From Blautia sp. SC05B48 (GTDB taxonomy: Bacteria > Bacillota > Clostridia > Lachnospirales > Lachnospiraceae): a DNA stretch of 64,000 nucleotides. Shown piece by piece: positions 50,880-63,705 of this stretch (the first letter of the stretch is position 1; every line of letters starts with the position of its first letter). The DNA lies in assembly GCF_005848555.1 (NCBI RefSeq), contig NZ_CP040518.1:1611001-1675000 (forward strand). Direction: 5' to 3'. The position numbers were made by a program, and so were the translations under genes. The notes beneath the pieces are model-generated. The model saw nothing but the letters and a program-made list of their open reading frames with translations, ran no database searches and had not been told where the DNA came from.

Positions 50880-51359
50880 ATGGAATTGAATCATTTTGAT
50901 AAAAATGGAAATGCTGTTATGGTGGATGTGTCCGACAAACCGGTCACTCACCGTACAGCAATAGCCACGGGTTCCATTCAGGTAAGCCCGGAGATCATGG
51001 CCGCGGTAAAAAGCGGAAATGTGAAAAAAGGTGATGTACTTGGTGTGGCCCGTGTGGCAGGTATCATGGGTGTGAAGCGTACTTCTGAGCTGATTCCCAT
51101 GTGCCATCCACTTCCCATCCAGAAATGTTCCGTGGATTTTGAGATCGATGAGGATGCGGGAGTGATCCGTGTATTCTGCACGGTAAAAACAGAGGGAAAA
51201 ACAGGCGTGGAGATGGAGGCCCTGACAGGTGTTCAGGTGACGCTTCTGACTATTTATGATATGTGCAAGGCAATTGACAAGCACATGGTCATGTCTGATA
51301 TCCATCTGGAAGAAAAAACAGGAGGCAAAAGCGGAGATTTCCGTTTTGAGGAAAAATAA
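50880..51359 (+). CDS. moaC: Cyclic pyranopterin monophosphate synthase
   Basis: 159 aa, second step of molybdopterin synthesis: converts the MoaA product (3',8-cyclo-dihydro-GTP) to cPMP. Signature segments [28 protein letters not shown] (catalytic His region), [10 protein letters not shown] and [11 protein letters not shown] with the catalytic Lys. A clear Shine-Dalgarno is missing, so translation may depend on coupling with metG. The stop overlaps the moaA start by one base. Confidence 0.95.
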
Positions 51360-52348: not shown

Positions 52349-52351
52349 GTG

Positions 52352-52840
52352 ATGAAGAGAGTTGCTGTGATCACTTCTAGTGATAAGGGTTACAGAGGGG
52401 AGCGTGAGGATCTTAGTGGTCCTGCTGTGAAGGAAATTATGGAGGCGGCCGGGTATGAGGTTGTTTCTGTGGATGTTTTGCCGGATGACCGTGGGATGCT
52501 TGGAAGCCGGATGGCTGAGATCGCAGATCTGGGGCTTGCGGAGCTGATTTTGACTACGGGTGGTACCGGGTTTTCTCAGAGGGATGTGACACCGGAGGCT
52601 ACGGAGGATGTGATCGAGCGGCGTGTGCCGGGGATTCCGGAGGCGATGAGGGCGTTTAGTATGACGATCACGAAGCGGGCGATGCTGAGCCGGGCTACGG
52701 CTGGGATCCGGAAGGGGACGTTGATCGTTAATCTGCCGGGGAGTCCTAAGGCTGTCAGGGAATGCCTGGAGGTTATTATTGAGGCGTTGGGGCATGGGAT
52801 TGAGATTTTGACTGGAGATGTGGGGGAGTGTGGTCGGTAG
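52352..52840 (+). CDS. mogA: Molybdopterin adenylyltransferase (MogA/MoaB family)
   Basis: 162 aa. Binds molybdopterin and adenylates it before metal insertion. LILTTGGTGFSQRDVTPEATEDVIERRVPGIPEAMR is the MoCF-biosynthesis signature, here spread over residues 68-103, and LIVNLPGSPKAVRECLEVI closes the fold. ATG 52352 has GGAGG seven bases upstream. MoeA and MobA/MobB proper are not in the cluster; MoaD/MoaE are also absent here. Confidence 0.9.
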   Translation: MKRVAVITSSDKGYRGEREDLSGPAVKEIMEAAGYEVVSVDVLPDDRGMLGSRMAEIADLGLAELILTTGGTGFSQRDVTPEATEDVIERRVPGIPEAMRAFSMTITKRAMLSRATAGIRKGTLIVNLPGSPKAVRECLEVIIEALGHGIEILTGDVGECGR

Positions 52841-53331: not shown

Positions 53332-54546
53332 ATGGGAAAAGTACTTGCGGTTTGTATCAGTGAGAAGAAAGGAACACAGAAGAAGAATGTTGGGTCTGCG
53401 GTTTTTGTGGAGGACTGGGGGCTTGAGGGGGATGCTCATGCCGGAAAGTGGCATCGGCAGGTGAGTCTTCTTTCCGGTGAAAAGATCGATGCGTTTCGTG
53501 CGAAGGGCGCAGAGGTCGAGGATGGTGCTTTTGGTGAGAACCTGGTTGTGGAAGGGATTGATTTTGCAAAGCTTCCGGTTGGCACCAGATTTCGCTGTGG
53601 TGAGGTTGTGCTGGAGCTGACTCAGATCGGAAAGGAGTGCCACAATGGCTGTGCCATTTTTCAGAAGATGGGTGAATGTATCATGCCCCGAGAAGGTGTG
53701 TTTACAAGAGTGCTGAAAGGTGGAAAAGTTTCCGTCGGTGACGAGATGACTGTGGATAAAGCTATGATTTTTGATACCCATGCACATTACGATGATGAGG
53801 CTTTTGATGAGGATCGTTCTGACATGCTGGATAGTATGCAGGAGAACGGGATCGGGCATATTGTGGATGTGTGTGCTTCTGTGGGACATTTTGACCGGGT
53901 TTATGATTTGGTGGAGAAGTATCCTTTTATTTATGGCGCAGTGGGTGTTCATCCGGATGATGCGGATAAGGTGGATGCAGCAGTTCTGGATGAGATCCGC
54001 AGATATTGCGACATGGAAAAGACTGTGGCTGTAGGTGAGATCGGTTTGGATTATTACTGGCATAAGGAGAAGGAGGAGCATCTTCTCCAGCAGAAGGTAT
54101 TCCGCCAGCAGATGGACATTGCCCGTGAGAAACAGCTTCCGTTTATCATTCATAGCCGTGACGCTGCGGAGGATACGTTGAATATCGTGAAAGAATATAT
54201 GAAGGACGGGATGTATGGTGGAGTTATCCATTGCTTTTCCTATAGCAAAGAAATTGCGAGAGAGTATCTGAATATGGGACTTTATCTCGGAATCGGCGGA
54301 GTGGTTACTTTTAAGAATTCCCGGAAGCTGAAGGAAGTGGCAGAGTATGCACCGCTGAATCAGATTCTGCTGGAAACCGACTGCCCGTACATGGCACCTG
54401 TGCCGAACCGTGGGAAGAGGAACAGCTCCCTGTATCTGCCGGAGGTTGTGAAGACGATTGCGGAGATTAAGGGGATCAGCTGCGAGGAGGTTGTGGCTGT
54501 GACGGAGAGTAATGCGTTGAAGGTGTTTGGGGTGATTTTAGAATAA
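53332..54546 (+). CDS. MOSC domain-TatD hydrolase fusion protein
   Basis: 404 aa in two domains. Residues 1-143 form a MOSC domain (GLEGDAHAGKWHRQVSLL, FGENLVVEGID, KECHNGCAI with Cys103 and Cys107), a family tied to sulfur and molybdenum-cofactor handling. Residues 145-404 form a TatD-type metal hydrolase (FDTHAHYDD HxH, GEIGLDYYW, PFIIHSRDA, LLETDCPYM). The junction has no stop, ATG 53764 has no ribosome site, so this is a true fusion. It follows the moa genes across the palindrome region. The TatD half is usually a nuclease; a coupling to the MOSC half is unexplained. Confidence 0.85.
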   Translation: MGKVLAVCISEKKGTQKKNVGSAVFVEDWGLEGDAHAGKWHRQVSLLSGEKIDAFRAKGAEVEDGAFGENLVVEGIDFAKLPVGTRFRCGEVVLELTQIGKECHNGCAIFQKMGECIMPREGVFTRVLKGGKVSVGDEMTVDKAMIFDTHAHYDDEAFDEDRSDMLDSMQENGIGHIVDVCASVGHFDRVYDLVEKYPFIYGAVGVHPDDADKVDAAVLDEIRRYCDMEKTVAVGEIGLDYYWHKEKEEHLLQQKVFRQQMDIAREKQLPFIIHSRDAAEDTLNIVKEYMKDGMYGGVIHCFSYSKEIAREYLNMGLYLGIGGVVTFKNSRKLKEVAEYAPLNQILLETDCPYMAPVPNRGKRNSSLYLPEVVKTIAEIKGISCEEVVAVTESNALKVFGVILE

Positions 54547-54630: not shown

Positions 54631-55167
54631 TTAAGGAGATGAGATTTTATATTGAATGTGATTAAGTAAAGAGCAATCATTTCGATTGTCTTCAGAAATT
54701 ATAATGATTTCTACCTTTGGGTGATTTACGATTTCAGGCCAGAAAGATTCTGCAGGTTCTTGCAATACCCCTAAAATGGGAGTCTGCCCATCCAAAAGGT
54801 TTAGGATTTTTCTCCGAAATAAAGCTGCGTCTGCTTCATGTGGACCAAGCTCATCCATAACAATTAAAGAGCAGTCAGAACACATGGAAAGAATATTGCA
54901 TCCAAGGCGATCAAAGGTATCGGCAGTGTGTTCATCTGTTTTTCCGCATAAAAACAAAAGATTAGATTCGTTTGGGAGCTCCTTCTCTTTTAGATGGTAC
55001 ATATGAACTGAATACTGATCCTTCAGATAGTTTTTTGTGCGGACAGTCAGGAATCCATCAGAGGTTTTCTTATAATCATCTAATATCTTTTGGATCAATG
55101 TAGATTTTCCAATGTGTTTTTTACCAGTTAAAAATATATGTTGAGTCATAGTAAAGTCCCATTTCAT
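54631..55167 (-). CDS. P-loop nucleoside-triphosphatase (THEP1-like)
   Basis: 178 aa. Walker A in FLTGKKHIGKSTLI and a Walker B-like VMDELGPHEADAALFR match the NTPase_1/THEP1 family. The start at 55167 overlaps the methyltransferase stop (ATGA); ATG 55149, right before TQHIFLTG, is an equally reasonable start. Last gene of the permease-ATPase-methyltransferase operon. NTPases of this kind occur with molybdenum transport and cofactor genes, but the role here is open. Confidence 0.78.
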   Translation of the reverse strand: MKWDFTMTQHIFLTGKKHIGKSTLIQKILDDYKKTSDGFLTVRTKNYLKDQYSVHMYHLKEKELPNESNLLFLCGKTDEHTADTFDRLGCNILSMCSDCSLIVMDELGPHEADAALFRRKILNLLDGQTPILGVLQEPAESFWPEIVNHPKVEIIIISEDNRNDCSLLNHIQYKISSP

Positions 55168-56048
55168 TTTATAATAGTTCTATAGTCAGGTCGTATTGTT
55201 TTGTTTCGAACATCCCAGAGAATTCTTCCATAAGTGGAATCAGTTATTTCCTTGATCTGCCCATCTTTGTTTAAGTGAGATTGAATCCATTGCATGATTT
55301 TATTTGCGTTTTCCTGTGTATATTCTTCAGAAGGAAGCATGTGCTCCATGAGGGAATCAATATATTGTTCATCCGGAGTTACCCAGGTTTCACGATGGAG
55401 TTTTTCATAGCTTGTTTCAGGATTATATCCAAGCAGAAATAATATATTGAAAAGAGAGAAAAACCATCGCCCATTCCATTGGGGTGCTGTTTGTTTGCCA
55501 AATACTTCCTGTAAGATCTGTTCCCTGAGTGAATTTCGTCTGTCAAGATGCGTGATATTACAGCACCATGCCCTGCTCATTTCCATAGATTTTATCAGTC
55601 CGTCCATATTGTGGATTGCAGGTGTCATGGAACTGAATACCAAATCAAATGCATGCGTATACCCCGATTTATCAATATCTAATGTCTGAAAATTACATGT
55701 ATAGAGTATAGCGTTATTTAAGCCTTCATTTTGGATATGTTCCATTCCGTGTTTAACCATTTTATCAGAAATATCCAGCCCCACTACTTTGTGTACATAT
55801 TTGGCAAATGCAGCAGCAAACCGTCCGGGACCGCATCCAATATCTGCGACATCATAATTTTTTTCAAGAAGTCCTTTGGAATCCAGGTAGTTTATTGCGC
55901 TGATGACACGTTCATCACCTTTTTCTTTCTTTTTGCGTGCGTCTTCCCAAAAGTCTGCACGTTTATTCCATCTTTCTATAGCCCGCTCAGGTAATTCTGC
56001 AGGCTCAGATTCCTGCAGAGAAATAAAATAATCCAATATAGAGTCCAT
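55164..56048 (-). CDS. Class I SAM-dependent methyltransferase in the ABC transporter operon
   Basis: 294 aa. SAM motif I is VADIGCGPGRFAAAFA with VVGLDIS as motif II (about residues 66-95), and a C-terminal extension of ~150 residues with many aromatic residues. The acceptor cannot be told. It sits between an FecCD-type importer and a THEP1-like NTPase, an arrangement suggesting chemical handling of an imported metal complex or cofactor precursor, for which I know no established example. Start ATG 56048, 12 bases after the ATPase stop. Confidence 0.75.
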   Translation of the reverse strand: MDSILDYFISLQESEPAELPERAIERWNKRADFWEDARKKKEKGDERVISAINYLDSKGLLEKNYDVADIGCGPGRFAAAFAKYVHKVVGLDISDKMVKHGMEHIQNEGLNNAILYTCNFQTLDIDKSGYTHAFDLVFSSMTPAIHNMDGLIKSMEMSRAWCCNITHLDRRNSLREQILQEVFGKQTAPQWNGRWFFSLFNILFLLGYNPETSYEKLHRETWVTPDEQYIDSLMEHMLPSEEYTQENANKIMQWIQSHLNKDGQIKEITDSTYGRILWDVRNKTIRPDYRTIIK

Positions 56049-56060
56049 GTATCATTTCTC

Positions 56061-56858
56061 CTAAAATGCTTTTGGTGAGCTATTTACCGGTAAACAGATA
56101 GTTCGTTCACGGCCATAGCGGTCGTGTGTAGTTATCACATCCATTTCAATATCGTAAACAGATTGTAAGGTTTCAGATGTAATGATTTCTTTGGGAGAGC
56201 CGAATCCCATAACCTTTCCGGATTTCATGAGAAGAACTTTGTTTCCCACGGAAAAGGGATGCTCAGGACTATGTGTTGACATAATAATGCAATAGCCCTG
56301 ATTGGCCAGCCCTGAAATTACTTCCATGAGAAGCTGATGATTGGCATAATCCAGATTGGCGGCTGGCTCGTCCATGATGAAGATTTTTGCAGACTGACAG
56401 ATTGCACGGGCAATTAAAACCAATTGCCTTTGTCCTCCGCTTAAGGAAGTATATTTCCTGTTGGCAAGAGGCAGGGCATTTACTTTCTCCAAGGCAGCAA
56501 AAGCTGCTTCCTGATCAGGCTCTTTTGGGGTTTCAAATGCGGAGAAATGAGAAGCACGCCCCATAATTACCATATCAAGAACTGTATAGGCAAATACAGG
56601 GGAATGATATTGGGGAATATATGCAATCATATTTGCCAGTGTTTTGGTTGTAAAGTCACTAATATTTTTTCCGGCTATCTTTATTTTTCCATTAGAAACA
56701 GGAAGGGAACCTAATATCATGCGGAACAGAGTGGTCTTTCCGCAACCATTAGGGCCAAGCAGACAAAGCACATCACCATAGTCTGCGCTGCAGCTGATAC
56801 CCTTTAAAATATCACCATTGCCGTAACCGCCAAAAACATTTTCAATTTCCAGAAGCAT
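56061..56858 (-). CDS. FecCD-type ABC transporter ATP-binding protein
   Basis: 265 aa. Walker A GPNGCGKTTLFRM, signature LSGGQRQLVLIARAI, Walker B IFIMDEPAANLDYANH, as in the FecE/BtuD/MolC subfamily. I start at ATG 56858 (MLLEIENVFGG), four bases after the permease stop; longer readings run into the permease. It energises the adjacent FecCD permease. Family substrates are iron complexes, cobalamin, and molybdate or tungstate. Confidence 0.88.
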   Translation of the reverse strand: MLLEIENVFGGYGNGDILKGISCSADYGDVLCLLGPNGCGKTTLFRMILGSLPVSNGKIKIAGKNISDFTTKTLANMIAYIPQYHSPVFAYTVLDMVIMGRASHFSAFETPKEPDQEAAFAALEKVNALPLANRKYTSLSGGQRQLVLIARAICQSAKIFIMDEPAANLDYANHQLLMEVISGLANQGYCIIMSTHSPEHPFSVGNKVLLMKSGKVMGFGSPKEIITSETLQSVYDIEMDVITTHDRYGRERTICLPVNSSPKAF

Positions 56859-56862
56859 ATAA

Positions 56863-57906
56863 TTACGCGCGCTCCTTTCGTTTGATGATAAGATAGATAA
56901 AGAAGGGGGCGCCCATGATACTTGTGACAACGCCAAGTGGAAGTTCCATGGACAAAAGGGAACGGGAAATATCATCAACAAGTATCAGGTATCCGCCGCC
57001 AAGGATCGCACTTGCAGGTATCAGCCTTCTGTAATCAACACCAACCAGTGCACGTGCCAGATGGGGGATCATCAGCCCGACCCATCCGATCAATCCTCCA
57101 AGACAGACTGCAGCGGCGCTGAGTAATGTGGAAGCGACTATAAAAATCAGACGATATTTACGCACATTGATTCCTAAACTTTTGGCTTCTTCTTCATCCA
57201 AAGTCAGCAGATTGATCTGCCATCGAAAAATAAAAATCAGACTTAATCCAATGATCATTGGAAGAACACTCCAGCAAAAGGATTTGGTTGTGGTTTTGGT
57301 TAAGCTGCCCATAAGCCAGAAAGTAATTTGCTGGAGAACATCATTGGGGTCTGCCACATATTTGATCATTGTGACACCGGCATTGCAGAGTGACATGATC
57401 ATAGTTCCGGTCAGAACAAGACTGAGGGTCTGGGAATGTGCGGATTTTCGGCTGATAAGATAGGATGCGGCTACTGCGGCCACACCACCTGCAAAAGCAG
57501 AAAGCTGAATCATCCAGTTGGAAGCTCCGTTTAAAATTGCAAAAGCAGCTCCGAGACTTGCACCGGAAGAAACTCCAAGGATATCCGGAGATACCAGTGG
57601 ATTGCGAAACATTCCCTGATAGGTTGCACCTGCTACCGAGAGGGAAGCACCAATAAATAAAGCAGACAGAATACGGGGCAGACGGATATTCCAGAATATG
57701 GTAACTGCCTGGGGTAAAATATCTCCTTTAAAACCAAATTTTGATAAAAATGCATTTAGTACCTGCACTGGTGTAAGCGGATAATATCCCACCCAGAATG
57801 AGAGTACTATAATGATAAACAAAAGTACCAGCATAACCGCCAACAGCAGAACATATCGTCTTTGTCGGGCAGCGGCGGCATTTTTTTCATTATCTGTCAG
57901 ATTCAT
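56863..57906 (-). CDS. FecCD-family ABC transporter permease
   Basis: 347 aa, about ten transmembrane helices. The region WNIRLPRILSALFIGASLSVAGATYQGMFRNPLVSPDILGVSSGA is the FecCD signature (residues about 69-115), followed by LVLTGTMIMSLCNAG, LGINVRKYR and GLIGWVGLMIPHLARALVG. First gene on the minus strand, with a consensus promoter and a divergent binding-protein gene. The surrounding Mo genes suggest a MolB-like molybdate/tungstate role; iron-siderophore remains possible. Confidence 0.88.
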   Translation of the reverse strand: MNLTDNEKNAAAARQRRYVLLLAVMLVLLFIIIVLSFWVGYYPLTPVQVLNAFLSKFGFKGDILPQAVTIFWNIRLPRILSALFIGASLSVAGATYQGMFRNPLVSPDILGVSSGASLGAAFAILNGASNWMIQLSAFAGGVAAVAASYLISRKSAHSQTLSLVLTGTMIMSLCNAGVTMIKYVADPNDVLQQITFWLMGSLTKTTTKSFCWSVLPMIIGLSLIFIFRWQINLLTLDEEEAKSLGINVRKYRLIFIVASTLLSAAAVCLGGLIGWVGLMIPHLARALVGVDYRRLIPASAILGGGYLILVDDISRSLLSMELPLGVVTSIMGAPFFIYLIIKRKERA

Positions 57907-58023: not shown

Positions 58024-58075
58024 TTTCAATAAGCGTCAATTATGAGTAATGCGGAGAAAAGAAAGGAGAGAGTCT

Positions 58076-59200
58076 ATGAAAAAGCACAGACAACTTTTGG
58101 CTCTGTTTATATGTCTGGTGATGTCAGTCAGTCTTTTAACAGGATATTCTGAGACGAAAGCTGCTACTGAAGAGCCGACGCAGAGTGCGGAGCAGGATGC
58201 CACGCAGGAAACTGCTGAAACCCGTGAGATCACAGACATGGCAGGAAGAAAAGTAACTGTCCCAACAGCAGAAAATATTGAATCTGTTTTTTCAGCGGGT
58301 CCTGTAGCTGCAATTTTTCTGTATATGGTTGCACCGGATAAGCTTCTTGGGTGGAATTATGAACTGAATGATGTTGAGAAATCTATTATTCTGGACAAAT
58401 ATCAGGATCTTCCTAATTTTGGAATGGGTGATGCTGTCAATTATGAAGCAGTAATTGCTGCCAATCCTACAATTGCTATTAATAGTGGAAAGATTAATGA
58501 TGCAATGGTTTCTGATTGCGATGCGTTATCAGAAAGCCTTGGAATTCCGGTTGTTGCAGTAGACAACGAGCTTAATAATTCTGCGGAAGCTTTTCGTTTT
58601 ATGGGCGAACTTCTTGGTGTAGAAGATCATGCAGAAGAGCTTGCCCAGTATGCGGAGCAGGTATTTACTGATATTAATGCACTTTCAGATATTCCAGAAG
58701 AAAAGAAAGTCAGTGTATACTTCGGTAATGGAGAGGATTCACTGGAAACTGCACCCAGGGGATCCCAGCATGCACAGATTTTTGATGTCATCAATGCAGT
58801 CAATGTTGCAGATCTGGAATTGGGAGATGGATCTCGTGTTCAGATTTCAGCAGAACAGCTTCTTGCATGGGATCCGGATGTGATTGTTGTAAATGGTGAA
58901 CCAAAGGCAGATAAAAGCGGAAGTTCTGCAGCAGAAGATATCCTGAGCAATCCTGATTATGCTTCATTAAAAGCAGTACAGGACCAAAAGGTTTATGGAA
59001 CTCCGAATGCACCGTTTAGCTGGGTGGATCGTCCGGCAGGACCAAATCGTCTGATCGGTATGCGATGGTTCTCAGCATTGATTTATCCGGAATATATTAA
59101 ATGTGATATCAATGAAGAAATACATAAATTTTTCGATCTTTTTTATCATGTTGATCTGTCCGATGAACAGTTGGAAAATGTTCTGAAAGGAACTTTATAA
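58076..59200 (+). CDS. ABC transporter substrate-binding protein (Peripla_BP_2 class)
   Basis: 374 aa. An export signal (KKHRQLLALFICLVMSVSLLTGYSE) is followed by a Thr/Glu-rich linker and two lobes with ITDMAGRKVTVPTAENIESVF, LPNFGMGDAVNYEAVIAANP and, near the end, PFSWVDRPAGPNRLIGMRWF. The spot where a lipobox cysteine is expected (LLTGx) holds Tyr24, coded TAT where TGT would give Cys, so lipidation would fail. I choose ATG 58076 with GGAGAG upstream. It partners the divergent FecCD permease and ATPase. The WxxRP...N signature is typical of Class III binding proteins of this kind. Confidence 0.85.
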   Translation: MKKHRQLLALFICLVMSVSLLTGYSETKAATEEPTQSAEQDATQETAETREITDMAGRKVTVPTAENIESVFSAGPVAAIFLYMVAPDKLLGWNYELNDVEKSIILDKYQDLPNFGMGDAVNYEAVIAANPTIAINSGKINDAMVSDCDALSESLGIPVVAVDNELNNSAEAFRFMGELLGVEDHAEELAQYAEQVFTDINALSDIPEEKKVSVYFGNGEDSLETAPRGSQHAQIFDVINAVNVADLELGDGSRVQISAEQLLAWDPDVIVVNGEPKADKSGSSAAEDILSNPDYASLKAVQDQKVYGTPNAPFSWVDRPAGPNRLIGMRWFSALIYPEYIKCDINEEIHKFFDLFYHVDLSDEQLENVLKGTL

Positions 59201-59244: not shown

Positions 59245-59292
59245 AAAAAGAAACGCTGGTTCCGGTAAATACCGGTTCCGGCGTTTCTTTTT
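59245..59292. terminator. Bidirectional terminator between the binding protein and the maturation operon
   Basis: AAAAAGAAACGC (59245-59256) pairs with GCGTTTCTTTTT (59281-59292), with an inner CCGGTA/TACCGG helix. It serves convergent genes on both strands. Confidence 0.92.
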
Positions 59293-60151
59293 ATAATTTT
59301 CGGATTATTGCGCTTCCATGCAGATCGCATACAGGATCTGCAAACAGATGGTTTTTCAGACAGAATTCCCCAACCGCTTTTCGGCATCCGGAAAACTGTG
59401 TACTGTACACATCGTGAACCAAGAGAACTCCTCCGGTGGCCAGGCGTTCATAGAACAGAGGAAGTGCAGCAGCAGTTGGAGCATAAAGATCCGCGTCCAG
59501 AGATACAAAACAAAAAGTTTCATCTCTAACATCGGAAAAGGTATCTGGAAACCATCCTTTGTGGATCACAGTACGTGTAGGATCTGGCATAACATGAAGA
59601 ACAGAGTCAATATCAGTAGAAGAAAAATCACCTGTTTTGGCGCGGGACAGATTACCGGAGGCTTCTATTGTGATATCCTTTTCTGAAAAGCCCTCAAAAG
59701 TATCAAAAAGATGGATTTTTCGGTCTGGAAAGGCTGCACTGATCAGGGAAGAAAATTCACCTCGGAAAACACCCAGTTCTGCAACATTTCCCGGAATATC
59801 CAATTGATAGATCTGCTCAGATAAAAGACGCATAACAGCAACCCGTGCGTCAAACATGCGAAGGACGGAGGGATCACGAAAAGGTCCGTGATAACCCAGG
59901 TTTTCCATCTGTTTTATCATAGAATTACGCCGTTCTTCATCCAGAACTCCCAGGATGACCAGATCCGGGAGAAGTGCTACTGCAGCATCCGGAGAACAGA
60001 CTGGAATATTCCCAATATAGGATCCGTGTTTATGGGGGTCATTATCAGCAAAGCACAGGAGCTGACAGGGACTGTTGAGAAGTCTTGCTGTCATTTGTCC
60101 AATTTGTCCGGCACCAAATATTACAGCTTTATATACGGATTTTGCCATCAT
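59291..60151 (-). CDS. Rossmann-fold domain fused to TylF/macrocin-type methyltransferase-like domain
   Basis: 286 aa. Residues 1-95: dinucleotide-binding-like GAGQIG (13-18) followed by FADNDPHKHG, as in short Rossmann sensors. Residues ~105-285: AdoMet-fold domain with VAELGVFRGEFSSLI, KIHLFDTFEGF, SLDADLYAPTAAALPLFY and HDVY, close to the TylF/MycF O-methyltransferase family. Start overlaps the xdhC stop (ATGATG). As last gene of a molybdenum-hydroxylase maturation operon it is unexpected, and I know of no assigned step for such a protein there. A two-domain methyltransferase on a cofactor or small molecule is the plainest reading. Confidence 0.75.
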   Translation of the reverse strand: MMAKSVYKAVIFGAGQIGQMTARLLNSPCQLLCFADNDPHKHGSYIGNIPVCSPDAAVALLPDLVILGVLDEERRNSMIKQMENLGYHGPFRDPSVLRMFDARVAVMRLLSEQIYQLDIPGNVAELGVFRGEFSSLISAAFPDRKIHLFDTFEGFSEKDITIEASGNLSRAKTGDFSSTDIDSVLHVMPDPTRTVIHKGWFPDTFSDVRDETFCFVSLDADLYAPTAAALPLFYERLATGGVLLVHDVYSTQFSGCRKAVGEFCLKNHLFADPVCDLHGSAIIRKL

Positions 60152-61173
60152 TTTGATGTAGCCTTTCTGTCAGCACGAACCTGGATTATCTGTCCTGTGA
60201 TGGAAATGGCGATTTCAGCCGGTGTTTCTGCTTTGATCTCCAGTCCTATAGGTGAGATGATACGGTTTAAATCTTGTTCATTAATGTTGTATTCTTCAAT
60301 CAGACGGCGAAATACAGCAGCTTTTTTTGCGCGGCTTCCAATAACGCCTATATAGCATGCAGGTGTAGCAAGAAGCTGTGCCTGTACAATGGTATCATAG
60401 GAATGTCCGCGTGTCATGACGCAGCAATAATCAGCAGCTGTGATAGAAACATACTGCTTTAGATGGTTGAAATCACAAAGTATTGTTTCAACTGCTCCCG
60501 GGAAAAGAGCAGGATCTGTAAATTCCGGCCGGTCATCCAGGACAACACAGCGAAAATCAACGCTTGCAAGGATTGGGACAAGCTTTTGTGAGACATGTCC
60601 GCCGCCGAATACATAGACAGTTCCTGAGGTTCCAATCTGTTCAGAAAACAGATCATAATCTTCACTATGATATCGGTGTGGCTTTGCAGATAAAGAAGAT
60701 AATACAGAAGAAGGAACATTGGCAGTTCCGATGAGACCGCATGCAGGACTGTAGAGGCTCACACCGGAGGTGGTGAGAAGATCGCAGATCAGCCAGAAAT
60801 CTTTTCGCTCTTCATAGAATTTTTCCGCAGTTTCCGTGATTTCCATAATAATCGGATCGTTATGATCAAGATACTGGAAAAAGGCCGTAACATCACCACC
60901 ACAGATCATACCAATATTTTCAACATCTTTATGATTCAGCCGGAATTCATGCTGGCAGGATTCCTTTTTTTCAAGAATATCCAATGCCATACATTCAGCA
61001 CGATATTCTACAGCTCCACCTCCGATGGTTCCGGAAATTCTGCCGCTTTTTCCGACCAGCATGCGGGAACCGGCACCTCTTGGTGTAGACCCTGAGGATG
61101 CTGTAACGGAAACAAGTACAAGATCGTTTTCCTCTAGGAATTGTTGTTTTATTGTCTGAAATAATGTTCTCAT
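60148..61173 (-). CDS. xdhC: XdhC-family molybdenum-hydroxylase maturation factor
   Basis: 341 aa, XdhC/CoxI family, which binds molybdenum cofactor and helps sulfurate and insert it into xanthine dehydrogenase-type enzymes. The N-terminal XdhC domain has SSGSTPRGAGSRMLV and GTIGGGAVEYRAE; the C-terminal Rossmann domain has VYVFGGGHVSQKLVPI, VVLDDRPEF and MTRGHSYDTIV. AGGAGG precedes the start. It overlaps the downstream Rossmann-TylF gene by four bases. The target enzyme is likely the divergent MOP-family protein. Confidence 0.92.
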   Translation of the reverse strand: MRTLFQTIKQQFLEENDLVLVSVTASSGSTPRGAGSRMLVGKSGRISGTIGGGAVEYRAECMALDILEKKESCQHEFRLNHKDVENIGMICGGDVTAFFQYLDHNDPIIMEITETAEKFYEERKDFWLICDLLTTSGVSLYSPACGLIGTANVPSSVLSSLSAKPHRYHSEDYDLFSEQIGTSGTVYVFGGGHVSQKLVPILASVDFRCVVLDDRPEFTDPALFPGAVETILCDFNHLKQYVSITAADYCCVMTRGHSYDTIVQAQLLATPACYIGVIGSRAKKAAVFRRLIEEYNINEQDLNRIISPIGLEIKAETPAEIAISITGQIIQVRADRKATSK

Positions 61174-61238
61174 ATAATAAAATACCTCCTAACTAAATTA
61201 AGTGATTTTTTTGCTCCAGTTGTGTATGTCTGCCTGGA

Positions 61239-62312
61239 CTAAAGCGTGATATGGCAGAGCGACTGTATCATGTCCTGCAGTTTGCGGGCTTGTTCTAACT
61301 GCTGCTCATGAGCTTTGCAAGCTTCCGGACTTTTGCATTTACTCATGCTGTCGGCAAATCTTTTTTCTATGGTTACACGTTGTGTTTCCTGAATCAGTTT
61401 ATCAGCCAGAAATACAATAGCTGCTTCATCCAGCTTGGTTTCCAGCAGACCATGGTGCTGTGAAATAATCTGGCTGATCTCAGGATAACCTAACTGTAAG
61501 AAAAGTTCACCGCCTGTTTTGGTGTGATGCCTCTGAAGTCTGGCAATATCATGCAGAAGTGCACCGGAGCGAACAAGCTTCTGATCAAAGATATAACCAT
61601 TGGATTCCAACATATTGCATAAACAACAGGCAAGTTCAGTAACAGCATCACTGTGAGCCTGTACATGACGGGGCAGAGAAACCGCATTGCGAAGCCTGAA
61701 GCATAGCCCGTCATTTAATTCAGGATGAGGCAGTATATAACTGGGATCAGAGAAAGAAATATTATTTCTTTCATTCACTTCCAGATGATAGTAAGAGCCA
61801 CAGGGAAGACGAAACCGCTGCCTGCTGTACATACCGGAATGTAATGCATATATATAAGAAGAGATTACATCTGTATGAGCTACCACTGCAATATCACCTT
61901 TAGAAGCGCAAAGAATCTTATGAACTGCCTGCGAAAAGCGAAAACCAGATGCAGCAGGAGTTTCTGCTCCCGGGATCGGATGATCAGGGTTATTTTCACG
62001 GGCTTTATAAATGTCCGGCCATCTCTGGCGTATTTTATCAAAAGAAAGGCCATCCCATTCTCCCAGATTTCGTTCTGACAGATCAGAAACAATTATATGT
62101 GGAAGCTCAGGTGCCATATGGCCTGCTGTCTCAACAGCTCTTAACAAAGGACTGCAGTATATCCTTGATATTTTATCGGACAATTCTTCATTAAGAAGGA
62201 CTGCCTGCAAGTGTCCAAGCATGGATAGAGAGAAATCTGTCTGTCCCACACAGTAAGAATGTTCATCCGGATACTGTGGTTTTCCATGCCGGACCAGATA
62301 AAGGCTACGCAT
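61239..62312 (-). CDS. Histidine phosphatase-HD domain fusion protein
   Basis: 357 aa, two domains. Residues 1-190 are a histidine phosphatase with VRHGKPQ (His9), SPLLRAVETA, LSERNLGEWDGL and AHTDVI (His146). Residues ~205-350 form an HD phosphohydrolase (His220, LLHDIARL with His254-Asp255, YPEISQIISQHHG). The N-terminal part resembles cobalamin-type CobC phosphatases. Overlaps the end of the MobA-like gene by eight bases. A phosphate removal step on a nucleotide or pterin intermediate is an inference. The fusion recurs with MobA-like genes in Mo clusters, to my recollection. Confidence 0.78.
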   Translation of the reverse strand: MRSLYLVRHGKPQYPDEHSYCVGQTDFSLSMLGHLQAVLLNEELSDKISRIYCSPLLRAVETAGHMAPELPHIIVSDLSERNLGEWDGLSFDKIRQRWPDIYKARENNPDHPIPGAETPAASGFRFSQAVHKILCASKGDIAVVAHTDVISSYIYALHSGMYSRQRFRLPCGSYYHLEVNERNNISFSDPSYILPHPELNDGLCFRLRNAVSLPRHVQAHSDAVTELACCLCNMLESNGYIFDQKLVRSGALLHDIARLQRHHTKTGGELFLQLGYPEISQIISQHHGLLETKLDEAAIVFLADKLIQETQRVTIEKRFADSMSKCKSPEACKAHEQQLEQARKLQDMIQSLCHITL

Positions 62313-63234
62313 TTAAAAATCCTCCGAAACATTCTTCAAATATTTTTTTTGAACAGGAACGTGTTTCTTCTGAAAAACGGGCATATCGTTTCAGAAATTC
62401 TTCGCCGTATGGTGTCAGTTCGCTATGGCTTCCCCTTGTACCGCCCTGGCTTCTGATGATCAGAGGTTCATGAAGCTGTGATTCCAGGGTATGGATCAGG
62501 TTCCAGCTGGTAGAATAGGAAATGTGCATGCGCTCACAGGCATCACGGACAGATCCTGTTTCATGGATCAGTGTAAGCAGCGAATAGAGCTTTTCATCAA
62601 AAAAAACTTTTTCCCGGGCTAGCTGAATATGGATTTCAGAACGGATTAGGCTCTGGTTGTGTATGCGGAGGAGTTCATCGTAATCCTCTGGTGTATCAGC
62701 ATCATGAATAATACCGGGATCCTCTACATTAAGATAATACATGGGTTCCCCGCAATTATCCACAGCACCTTTAAGTCCTGATTTTCCGTCATCACTTAGA
62801 ATGGAATCAATCAGTGTGGAACGAATCAGAATGGGATGACCGGGATTGCCATTACAGACCGGAGTTACAAGGGGACGCCCCAGAGAGAGCATTTGCGTGA
62901 CTGTCTGGGCTGTGAACAGCGGAACATCAACAGGTGTAAAGAGTACCGTATCCACTTTGTCTTTCAGATACTCAAGTCCGATCCTGACAGAATCAAACAT
63001 ATGAGTGTTTGCATAGTTCTCATTTCGAAGAAAGACTACATTATTGGAAGCCAGGTGGCATTCCAGAACATCTGCATGATATCCGGTTACCACTACTACT
63101 TTGGAGATTCCGGCCTGCCGGAAATTATTGATCACGCGCTGTGCGATGGAAATGGAGCCAAGCTGAAGCATGGGTTTAAAGTCTCCCATTCGTGATGATT
63201 TCCCCGCAGCCACGATGAGGGCGCCTGTCTGCAT
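62305..63234 (-). CDS. MobA-like nucleotidyltransferase fused to a ModE-like DNA-binding domain
   Basis: 309 aa. Residues 1-195 are an NTP transferase of the MobA/MocA group: LIVAAGKSSRMGDFKPMLQL, VVTGYHADVLE, FTPVDVPLF, GNPGHPILI. Residues ~210-290 are a winged HTH of the ModE N-terminal/LysR type: LLTLIHETGSVRDACERMHISYSTSWNLIHTLES and SQGGTRGSHSELTPYGEEFLKRY. MocA-type enzymes make cytosine dinucleotide molybdenum cofactor for xanthine dehydrogenase-like enzymes. The fused DNA-binding domain suggests the enzyme also senses cofactor state and controls the divergent promoter. First gene of its operon. Confidence 0.85.
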   Translation of the reverse strand: MQTGALIVAAGKSSRMGDFKPMLQLGSISIAQRVINNFRQAGISKVVVVTGYHADVLECHLASNNVVFLRNENYANTHMFDSVRIGLEYLKDKVDTVLFTPVDVPLFTAQTVTQMLSLGRPLVTPVCNGNPGHPILIRSTLIDSILSDDGKSGLKGAVDNCGEPMYYLNVEDPGIIHDADTPEDYDELLRIHNQSLIRSEIHIQLAREKVFFDEKLYSLLTLIHETGSVRDACERMHISYSTSWNLIHTLESQLHEPLIIRSQGGTRGSHSELTPYGEEFLKRYARFSEETRSCSKKIFEECFGGFLNA

Positions 63235-63444
63235 TCAGATACCTCCTTCTTTCAATGACATTATACAAATTTGATATTATTATAACATATAAAAGAATAA
63301 AAATAGTTAAAATTTTAAATACAACAAAATAAAATTGTCTGGAATATATAAAATAGCCAACTATTAATTATTTGTAATTTGTATAATTGTGCAAAATCAT
63401 GGTAGTATGGATATATAAAATAACGTGGACAGGAGAACTTTTTT
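63235..63444. promoter_or_regulatory. Divergent intergenic region with repeated AT-rich motifs
   Basis: 210-base AT-rich region between the maturation operon and the enzyme operon. A motif ATATATAAAATARC occurs at 63344-63357 and 63411-63424, 67 bases apart. A TTGTAT...TAGTAT pair (about 63379-63408, 18-base spacing) is a weak plus-strand promoter. The ATATAA-type motif is reminiscent of ModE half-sites, so the ModE-like fusion is a candidate binder. Evidence is limited to pattern. Confidence 0.45.
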
Positions 63445-63705
63445 ATGGATAAGATTTTTGAGATTACCGCAAAAGAAGTTACTGTACAGGTAAAAGATGA
63501 GCGTACAGGGGTTGTATACAGCCGGACGCTTCCCATCGATTATTATGAGAATGCAAATGTTTTAAAGCTCAGCGGTGAGAATCTGGACGGAAGCAGTTCT
63601 TCCATTGTTTTCTATTCCGCCAGAGGAATAGAGAGACTGAAAGATCTGACAGGCAGAGGAGCTGACCATGATCCGTGCGGAACGCATAAGCCTGAAGATC
63701 AGTAA
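63445..63705 (+). CDS. Small protein (86 aa) ahead of the aldehyde oxidoreductase gene
   Basis: No family recognised. ITAKEVTVQVKDERTGVVYSRTLPIDY looks like an all-beta start, and the C-terminal tail ends GRGADHDPCGTHKPEDQ, with closely spaced His, Asp and Cys that could bind a metal. AGGAGA lies ten bases from the ATG. The next gene begins 37 bases downstream. Conserved placement directly before the enzyme would suggest an accessory or cofactor-related role; that is not shown here. Confidence 0.65.
   Translation: MDKIFEITAKEVTVQVKDERTGVVYSRTLPIDYYENANVLKLSGENLDGSSSSIVFYSARGIERLKDLTGRGADHDPCGTHKPEDQ

Follow-up and report, generated by a model that had tools for sequence, protein, structure and literature searches.

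A rearranged aldehyde oxidoreductase gene set in Blautia includes a putative phosphatase-HD protein and a TylF-family methyltransferase linked to molybdenum-hydroxylase genes

A molybdenum (Mo)-dependent aldehyde oxidoreductase (AOR) and the genes that accompany it are represented by a group of NCBIfam models (NF045665, NF045664, NF045668, NF045663, NF045646 (TrsS), NF045666, NF045667 and NF045669) whose names refer to Desulfovibrio vulgaris genes DVU_1551 to DVU_1556 or neighbours, here called the DVU_1551-1559 type set. A proteome table in PMC10920352 places DVU_1559, as an AOR, with ethanol metabolism, the main text of PMC10102598 does not mention DVU155x genes, and no paper explaining the curated genes was among the literature matches listed. 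In Enterococcus faecalis, MobA-related, AOR-like, XdhC and ModE genes adjoin (EF2569-EF2572), as described in the literature on selenium (Se)-dependent Mo hydroxylase loci; in the main texts of two 2008 papers on these loci (PMC2276186, PMC2432076) the words 'phosphatase' and 'methyltransferase' have 0 occurrences. No paper combining 'TylF' and 'molybd' was found in the literature searched, which mostly left subscription papers outside, and no title among the matches listed linked the maturation of Mo hydroxylases to TylF or to a phosphatase. Here we describe a block of four minus-strand genes (59291..63234) in a 64,000-nucleotide stretch of Blautia sp. SC05B48 (NZ_CP040518.1, positions 1,611,001 to 1,675,000; hereafter the window), which is part of a single-contig 3.73 Mb genome. 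The genes encode a MobA-type nucleotidyltransferase with a ModE-like helix-turn-helix (MobA-HTH), a histidine phosphatase joined to an HD domain (phosphatase-HD), an XdhC-family factor and a Rossmann-TylF protein (Table 1).

An earlier note, made from the letters of this DNA, had proposed four overlapping or closely spaced genes with three domain fusions, divergent from a MOP-family enzyme. The list of open reading frames (ORFs) and the profile searches agree with it on coordinates and domain content, profiles match both parts of each fusion (MobA and ModE-like HTH, histidine phosphatase and HD, Rossmann and TylF), and an AOR does diverge from the block. MobA-HTH and phosphatase-HD overlap by 8 bp, a 65 bp gap separates phosphatase-HD from xdhC, and the start of the TylF gene overlaps the xdhC stop (4 bp). 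Because the gene order is retained in 5/5 Blautia loci (L095-L099; L and G numbers are our labels for loci and genomes) and partially in other genera, we consider the arrangement more than chance; the loci collected include ones from B. luti, B. wexlerae, B. schinkii and B. massiliensis records; the TylF protein also occurs, 100% identical over its full length, in Blautia schinkii and Blautia wexlerae.

The divergent enzyme belongs to NF045668, 'molybdopterin-dependent aldehyde oxidoreductase' (1521.3 bits vs. a cut-off of 1100), and is followed, outside the window, by a diclust oxidoreductase, a DVU_1556-like methyltransferase, a C-GCAxxG-C-C protein, TrsS and a DVU_1553 ligase. Most of these pass their cut-offs (TrsS, 606 vs. 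490; diclust, 791.9 vs. 530; DVU_1553, 341.5 vs. 300; DVU_1555, 156.5 vs. 103); DVU_1556 and XdhC_rel_AOR (NF045664) are the best-matching families for the methyltransferase and for XdhC, yet at 123.2 and 296.6 bits these fall below the cut-offs of 155 and 350. XdhC also matches PF13478 (133.6 bits) and PF02625 (58.0 bits). Since the AOR is followed by TrsS, DVU_1553, 1555 and 1556-type genes, the locus would be expected to function like the DVU_1551-1559 type set; it is a rearranged form of that curated set, which is, as far as we found, unexplained. The earlier reading thus holds in its linkage to maturation, and has to give way where it did not foresee this resemblance or the partial account of phosphatase-HD that follows from it. 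Matches of the DVU_1551 and TrsS models across the window's order at E 0.001 were dropped (244/246 and 242/246 genomes); as such matches are near-universal there, only those above cut-off were used (DVU_1551 in 1/246 genomes, TrsS in 3/246).

The clearest rearrangement concerns DVU_1551 itself. Its model (NF045665; 359 positions, MobA then HD) calls for MobA and HD in one chain at 315 bits, and no single chain here reaches this score: positions 2-200 match MobA-HTH (196.1 bits) and positions 202-358 match phosphatase-HD (131 bits), so the MobA-HD chain is split in the window. By sequence, MobA-HTH supplies the N-terminal half of the DVU_1551 family and the HD half of phosphatase-HD its C-terminal half; the earlier note had regarded phosphatase-HD as a stranger to maturation, and this does not survive the comparison. 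MobA-HTH matches PF12804 (NTP_transf_3; 101.6 bits), TIGR00637 (53.7 bits) and, for its ModE/LysR HTH, PF00126 (39 bits); it is no ModE by profile (HTH 53.7 bits vs. a cut-off of 98.5, with the molybdate-binding domain absent among its matches). Phosphatase-HD matches His_Phos_1 (126.6 bits), HD (44.2 bits) and TIGR03162 (100.9 bits), and its structure model has a pLDDT (predicted local distance difference test) of 95.7. Across 35 aligned sequences including the window's, the phosphatase domain keeps R8 H9, R58, E80 and H146 invariant, which we take to be the catalytic set of histidine phosphatases (Arg-His, second Arg, Glu, second His), and the HD domain keeps H220, H254, D255 and D304, presumably the metal ligands of HD phosphohydrolases (H, HD, D). 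Cys21 is likewise invariant and Cys326 nearly so in this alignment.

The same parts recur in relatives as other single-frame combinations: phosphatase-MobA-HD in L164, where the MobA-HD portion is above the DVU_1551 cut-off, and again in L205 (7349-9052, +; genome G275; a single 568-codon frame); MobA-phosphatase in L148; TylF-phosphatase-HD in L156; MobA-TylF in L161, where the contig end cuts the TylF end; and the classic MobA-HD in L162. The frames of L164, L148, L156, L161 and L162 are continuous, with no stops or Ns. The fused loci come mostly from metagenome assemblies, so any one of them calls for some caution; assembly error could nonetheless hardly produce five distinct arrangements built from these parts. 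In a further locus (L126, 5613-9019, -), phosphatase-HD is flanked by two MobA-type genes, one a MobA-HTH whose N-terminus is extended and whose N-terminal signature is altered, the other a plain MobA, which hints at a MobA-HTH copy on its way to becoming a regulator.

The Rossmann-TylF protein matches the TylF domain above cut-off (PF05711, 74.3 bits) and also by fold, with SpnH, NovP, MycF and CalS11 as fold relatives; its N-terminal Rossmann-like part shows a weak NeuD-type similarity (TIGR03570, 24.9 bits, residues 9-88). A scan of our genome collection with an alignment of 24 TylF relatives gave 478 loci, of which the best 80 were labelled and, with 20 further contexts added as contrast, entered as 100 rows into a maximum-likelihood tree from which clade membership was taken. 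A locus was labelled as Mo-linked if at least two out of ten core families scored 60 bits or higher in it; flanks are shorter at contig ends, and most loci come from metagenome assemblies. One branch (support 99/97) separates 72/100 rows as a clade, to which the window's protein belongs and which carries the signature motifs GAGQ[IV]G and DLHG. Within the clade, 35 rows had at least two core Mo genes, 12 had one and 25 had none, so that Mo genes lay within ~10 kb in 47/72 rows vs. 1/28 outside; the sole outside row (L201) has moaA, moaC, MOSC and mogA near it. Removal of three near-copies (L112, L198, L199) left the contrast intact (33 + 12 of 69 vs. 1/28), and among these 69 loci the neighbours included MobA (28), phosphatase (25), AOR-type subunits (25), XdhC (21) and MoaA (16). 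A locus outside the tree (L207), in genome G285, holds TylF beside AOR, MobA-HTH, phosphatase-HD, XdhC, MoaA, MogA and TrsS, a complete local set.

The co-occurrence of TylF with Mo enzymes that the earlier note had anticipated therefore stands within the clade and not beyond it. Distant TylF matches in the window's own order were rejected as evidence, since 13/13 contexts (L185-L197), some of them short (down to 3.9 kb), lacked a Mo gene; the Mo-hydroxylase family PF02738 was present in 4 of these 13 genomes (G018, G035, G061, G178; order baseline 67/246). Nor did stand-alone clade genes reveal another conserved neighbourhood: in 18 loci, one of which (L105) was later labelled with one Mo gene, unbiased clustering of the neighbours gave nothing other than TylF that was shared by more than 3. 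A plasmid search with TylF gave no match at 1e-30. In two loci (L115; L121, 10905-12086, -), a NifS-type cysteine desulfurase directly adjoins clade TylF and a TrsS/AOR operon (in L121, TIGR03402 at 523.4 bits, cut-off 530.75); it is likely the sulfur donor for XdhC.

Linkage also appears at the level of whole genomes. The 25 clade rows without a nearby Mo gene represent 24 genomes, of which 22 encode a PF02738 enzyme (20/21 + 2/3; the misses are G257 and G429) and 18 a full-length phosphatase-HD; among outside-clade genomes PF02738 was present in 5/10 and a phosphatase-HD with two domains, as in the window, in 0/10, with the fused phosphatase-MobA-HD in G275. A set of 17 mostly Oscillospiraceae or Ruminococcaceae genomes (16 with stand-alone TylF plus G251, which has one Mo gene near TylF) had phosphatase-HD in 17/17 and PF02738 in 16/17, and in 10/17 phosphatase-HD lay 3.1-3.6 kb from the Mo enzyme. 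The earlier note's reading would have been refuted had TylF and phosphatase-HD genes lain mostly away from Mo enzymes, and this check did not refute it. Beside the linkage of the TylF clade, a sample of 150 genomes from one family held 13 in which phosphatase-HD was full-length with E no higher than 5.5e-45, and all 13 had PF02738, against a baseline of 96/150 (Fisher 0.004, a value that, like the others here, overstates the independence of related rows). Inclusion of a weaker fourteenth genome without PF02738 (G409, 25% identity) gave 13/14 (Fisher 0.019), and any phosphatase-HD match at 1e-15, whole or half, gave 27 of 30. In the same sample, phosphatase-HD occurred in 4/6 clade-TylF genomes vs. 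9/144 others (Fisher 0.0005), and 11/11 genomes with a TylF match at 1e-30, some of whose rows lie outside the clade, had PF02738 (Fisher 0.008).

Because the clade is linked to Mo genes, its members co-occur with Mo hydroxylases when unlinked, and relatives fuse the parts in continuous frames, the MobA, HD, phosphatase and TylF families form a single module, and we consider it very probable that the four genes of the block act as one functional module of Mo-hydroxylase maturation. Several observations weigh against the explanation favoured below or narrow it. No Mo gene lies near TylF in the 25 clade rows mentioned above, and clade TylF accompanies single-chain AORs and split-subunit enzymes alike and hence has no fixed tie to TrsS. 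TylF is optional, with 85/96 PF02738 genomes of the family sample lacking a match at 1e-30, and G139, which has a complete one-chain DVU_1551, lacks a TylF match even at 0.001. Full-length phosphatase-HD is missing from 6/25 in-clade genomes (3 with the HD half only, 3 with nothing). PF02738 matches are missing from G257 and G279 (clade TylF and phosphatase-HD), G429 (clade TylF), G275 (phosphatase-MobA-HD, TylF outside the clade) and G409 (distant phosphatase-HD); in G279 Mo genes adjoin TylF all the same. Incomplete assembly possibly lies behind these five. Finally, D219 and D247 are retained in TylF, and His246 stands in the clade where SpnH and NovP have Asp, at what we take to be a metal-ligand position in relatives, so that metal and chemistry may differ; and we know of no methylated molybdopterin cytosine dinucleotide (MCD). 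The link of these families to Mo hydroxylases is strong, though with exceptions. In G275, either the assembly is incomplete or the module is used outside the xanthine oxidase family.

The linkage is well supported, the mechanism weakly. The explanation that we tentatively favour makes the block the maturation arm of the AOR, with nucleotide clearance by phosphatase-HD and O-methylation of the cofactor by TylF, and from the protein families we infer its substrates and order of steps as follows. MobA-HTH would join Mo-molybdopterin to a nucleotide, which its family suggests to be CMP drawn from CTP, yielding MCD, while its HTH may make expression responsive to the status of Mo or of the cofactor. 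XdhC would bind, sulfurate and insert the cofactor. The HD half, together with the CobC-like phosphatase found here, would most likely hydrolyse nucleotide by-products or nucleotides occupying the MCD pocket, as a nucleotide can take the place of MCD in such an enzyme; phosphatase-HD may also act on damaged cofactor, and clearing the pyrophosphate of the MobA reaction would be an alternative task for a protein encoded near MobA and XdhC. Rossmann-TylF would be an S-adenosylmethionine (SAM)- and metal-dependent O-methyltransferase of the vicinal-diol kind, acting on the nucleotide-bearing cofactor or a delivery intermediate, with the cytidine ribose as first candidate site. Methylation of the cofactor, or of its precursor, by TylF is a possibility we advance with some doubt; cofactor modification or quality control, as the earlier note suggested, is a candidate function. 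More specifically, and in our view rather unlikely, clade TylF could make an O-methylated MCD (e.g. at the cytidine ribose) and phosphatase-HD remove unmodified or free cytidine nucleotides, so that certain enzymes of the xanthine oxidase family in gut Clostridia receive the marked cofactor alone; to our knowledge, such an MCD has no description.

The module could instead serve turnover, with HD splitting MCD, the phosphatase taking the terminal molybdopterin phosphate and TylF methylating the freed pterin, so that damaged or metal-free cofactor is removed rather than modified. Urothione, an S-methylated human breakdown product of the Mo cofactor, may be compared. The linkage and fusion of a phosphatase, a phosphohydrolase and a methyltransferase to a nucleotidyltransferase, the invariant motifs of both hydrolase domains and the optional presence of TylF would all suit such a route; however, the solved TylF relatives carry O-methyltransferase names, and a disposal route ought to accompany further Mo enzyme families as well (our survey covered Mo hydroxylases), and we think it unlikely. 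To a similar degree we doubt that TylF modifies something other than the cofactor, be it the AOR protein, a compound that the AOR consumes or forms, or a small molecule involved in taking up Mo: TylF does lie beside FecCD-type importers and beside single-chain or split-subunit Mo hydroxylases, but the MobA-TylF and TylF-phosphatase-HD fusions place it with cofactor nucleotide chemistry, and the variety of adjoining enzyme types makes a common enzyme substrate unlikely. It is improbable that the locus is merely the known DVU_1551 set with its domains reshuffled, the phosphatase and TylF being of minor regulatory use or past function; the known set is nearly complete downstream, yet catalytic residues are retained in the phosphatase, HD and TylF relatives. 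Least of all do we credit a sugar or cell-surface methyltransferase present in Mo regions by coincidence, for although 27/28 outside-clade rows have no Mo linkage, the NeuD-type similarity is typical of sugar pathways and stand-alone clade genes share no neighbourhood, the clade-wide linkage, the co-occurrence when unlinked, the fusions and the clade-specific residues all speak against it.

Returning to the favoured maturation arm, the recurrence of a methyltransferase and a phosphatase with AOR activation sets in gut bacteria hints at an unrecognised chemical step on the Mo cofactor. The ways in which the domains are split and re-fused reveal the catalytic parts that go together, and the clade signature defines an exact candidate for a step in Mo cofactor handling.

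Several neighbouring features complete the locus. Between mobA and the AOR lie an A+T-rich inverted repeat (63260-63282 / 63365-63387, 82 nt spacer) and the stretch AATAGCCAA, conserved in 5/5 aligned Blautia sequences; a regulatory site for the HTH was considered here and dropped, as a ModE site was not established. Just upstream of the AOR, a small ORF that the earlier note had not mentioned, any more than the HD correspondence or the TrsS/DVU_155x genes after the AOR, has a DxCGxH motif close to its C-terminal end and no NCBIfam match at 1e-5 or 5; its product is possibly a small AOR partner. The genome also encodes a second Mo enzyme, made of three separate subunits (L004), and another plain protein of MobA size (205-residue frame at G000:C1:3118178). 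The FecCD-type importer is a possible Mo/W importer. A SAM methyltransferase (55164-56048, -) overlaps a THEP1-type NTPase (54631-55167, -) and adjoins this importer; the earlier note had counted it with the TylF protein, and we treat it as a separate matter. In L151, L159 and L163, too, clade TylF has a methyltransferase and a THEP1-type protein in its vicinity. A single 404-aa frame (53332-54546, +) joins a MOSC domain to a TatD-type DNase, and in the Blautia locus L099 the MOSC ORF is separate (186 codons).

Table 1. Genes of the four-gene block and neighbouring features in the window.
Feature	Position	Strand	Evidence or content
MobA-HTH gene	62305..63234	-	MobA-type nucleotidyltransferase aa 4-199; ModE-like HTH aa 212-289
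Phosphatase-HD gene	61239..62312	-	CobC-like histidine phosphatase aa 4-182; HD phosphohydrolase aa 202-353
XdhC-family AOR maturation factor gene	60148..61173	-	NF045664, PF13478, PF02625
Rossmann-TylF gene	59291..60151	-	PF05711; member of Mo-linked TylF clade
Conserved 86-codon ORF just upstream of AOR	63445..63705	+	Cluster of 6 loci (4 Blautia, L106, L162)
Single-chain AOR, 920 aa	63742..64000, continues past window end	+	NF045668; L003:743-3505
Periplasmic binding protein, FecCD-type ABC importer	58049..59200	+	PF01497 90.1 bits; neighbours in relatives
FecCD-type permease	56863..57906	-	PF01032 304.8 bits
ABC ATPase	56061..56981	-	Longest ORF, named from sequence; start probably further in
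MoaC	50880-51359	+	ORF, named from sequence
MoaA	51359-52348	+	ORF, named from sequence
MogA/MoaB-type cofactor gene	52349-52840	+	MoCF_biosynth 117.1 bits

Set against known systems, the locus shares with the TylF, MycF, NovP, SpnH and CalS11 sugar O-methyltransferases the TylF fold, and differs in the extra N-terminal Rossmann part, the clade's own DLHG and GAGQxG motifs and its Mo neighbourhood. With Se-dependent Mo hydroxylase loci, as described in the main texts cited above, it shares a gene grouping of the kind seen in E. faecalis (MobA-related, AOR-like, XdhC and ModE); its AOR, however, scores far below the cut-off of the Se-dependent family (TIGR03311, 409.1 bits vs. 830.45). With the MocA/XdhC maturation of xanthine oxidase family enzymes it has in common a MocA-like transferase (TIGR03310, 124.3 bits) and XdhC (TIGR02964, 147.9 bits), but both are below the curated cut-offs (186.45 and 161.6) and the operon holds two extra catalytic proteins. 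The nearest counterpart is the DVU_1551-1559 type set, with which it shares the AOR, diclust oxidoreductase, TrsS, AMP-dependent ligase and C-GCAxxG-C-C protein above cut-offs, as well as XdhC-type and DVU_1556-type proteins that match the set's models best, though below cut-offs; here, in contrast, DVU_1551 is divided between MobA-HTH and phosphatase-HD, and a phosphatase and a Rossmann-TylF gene have been added.

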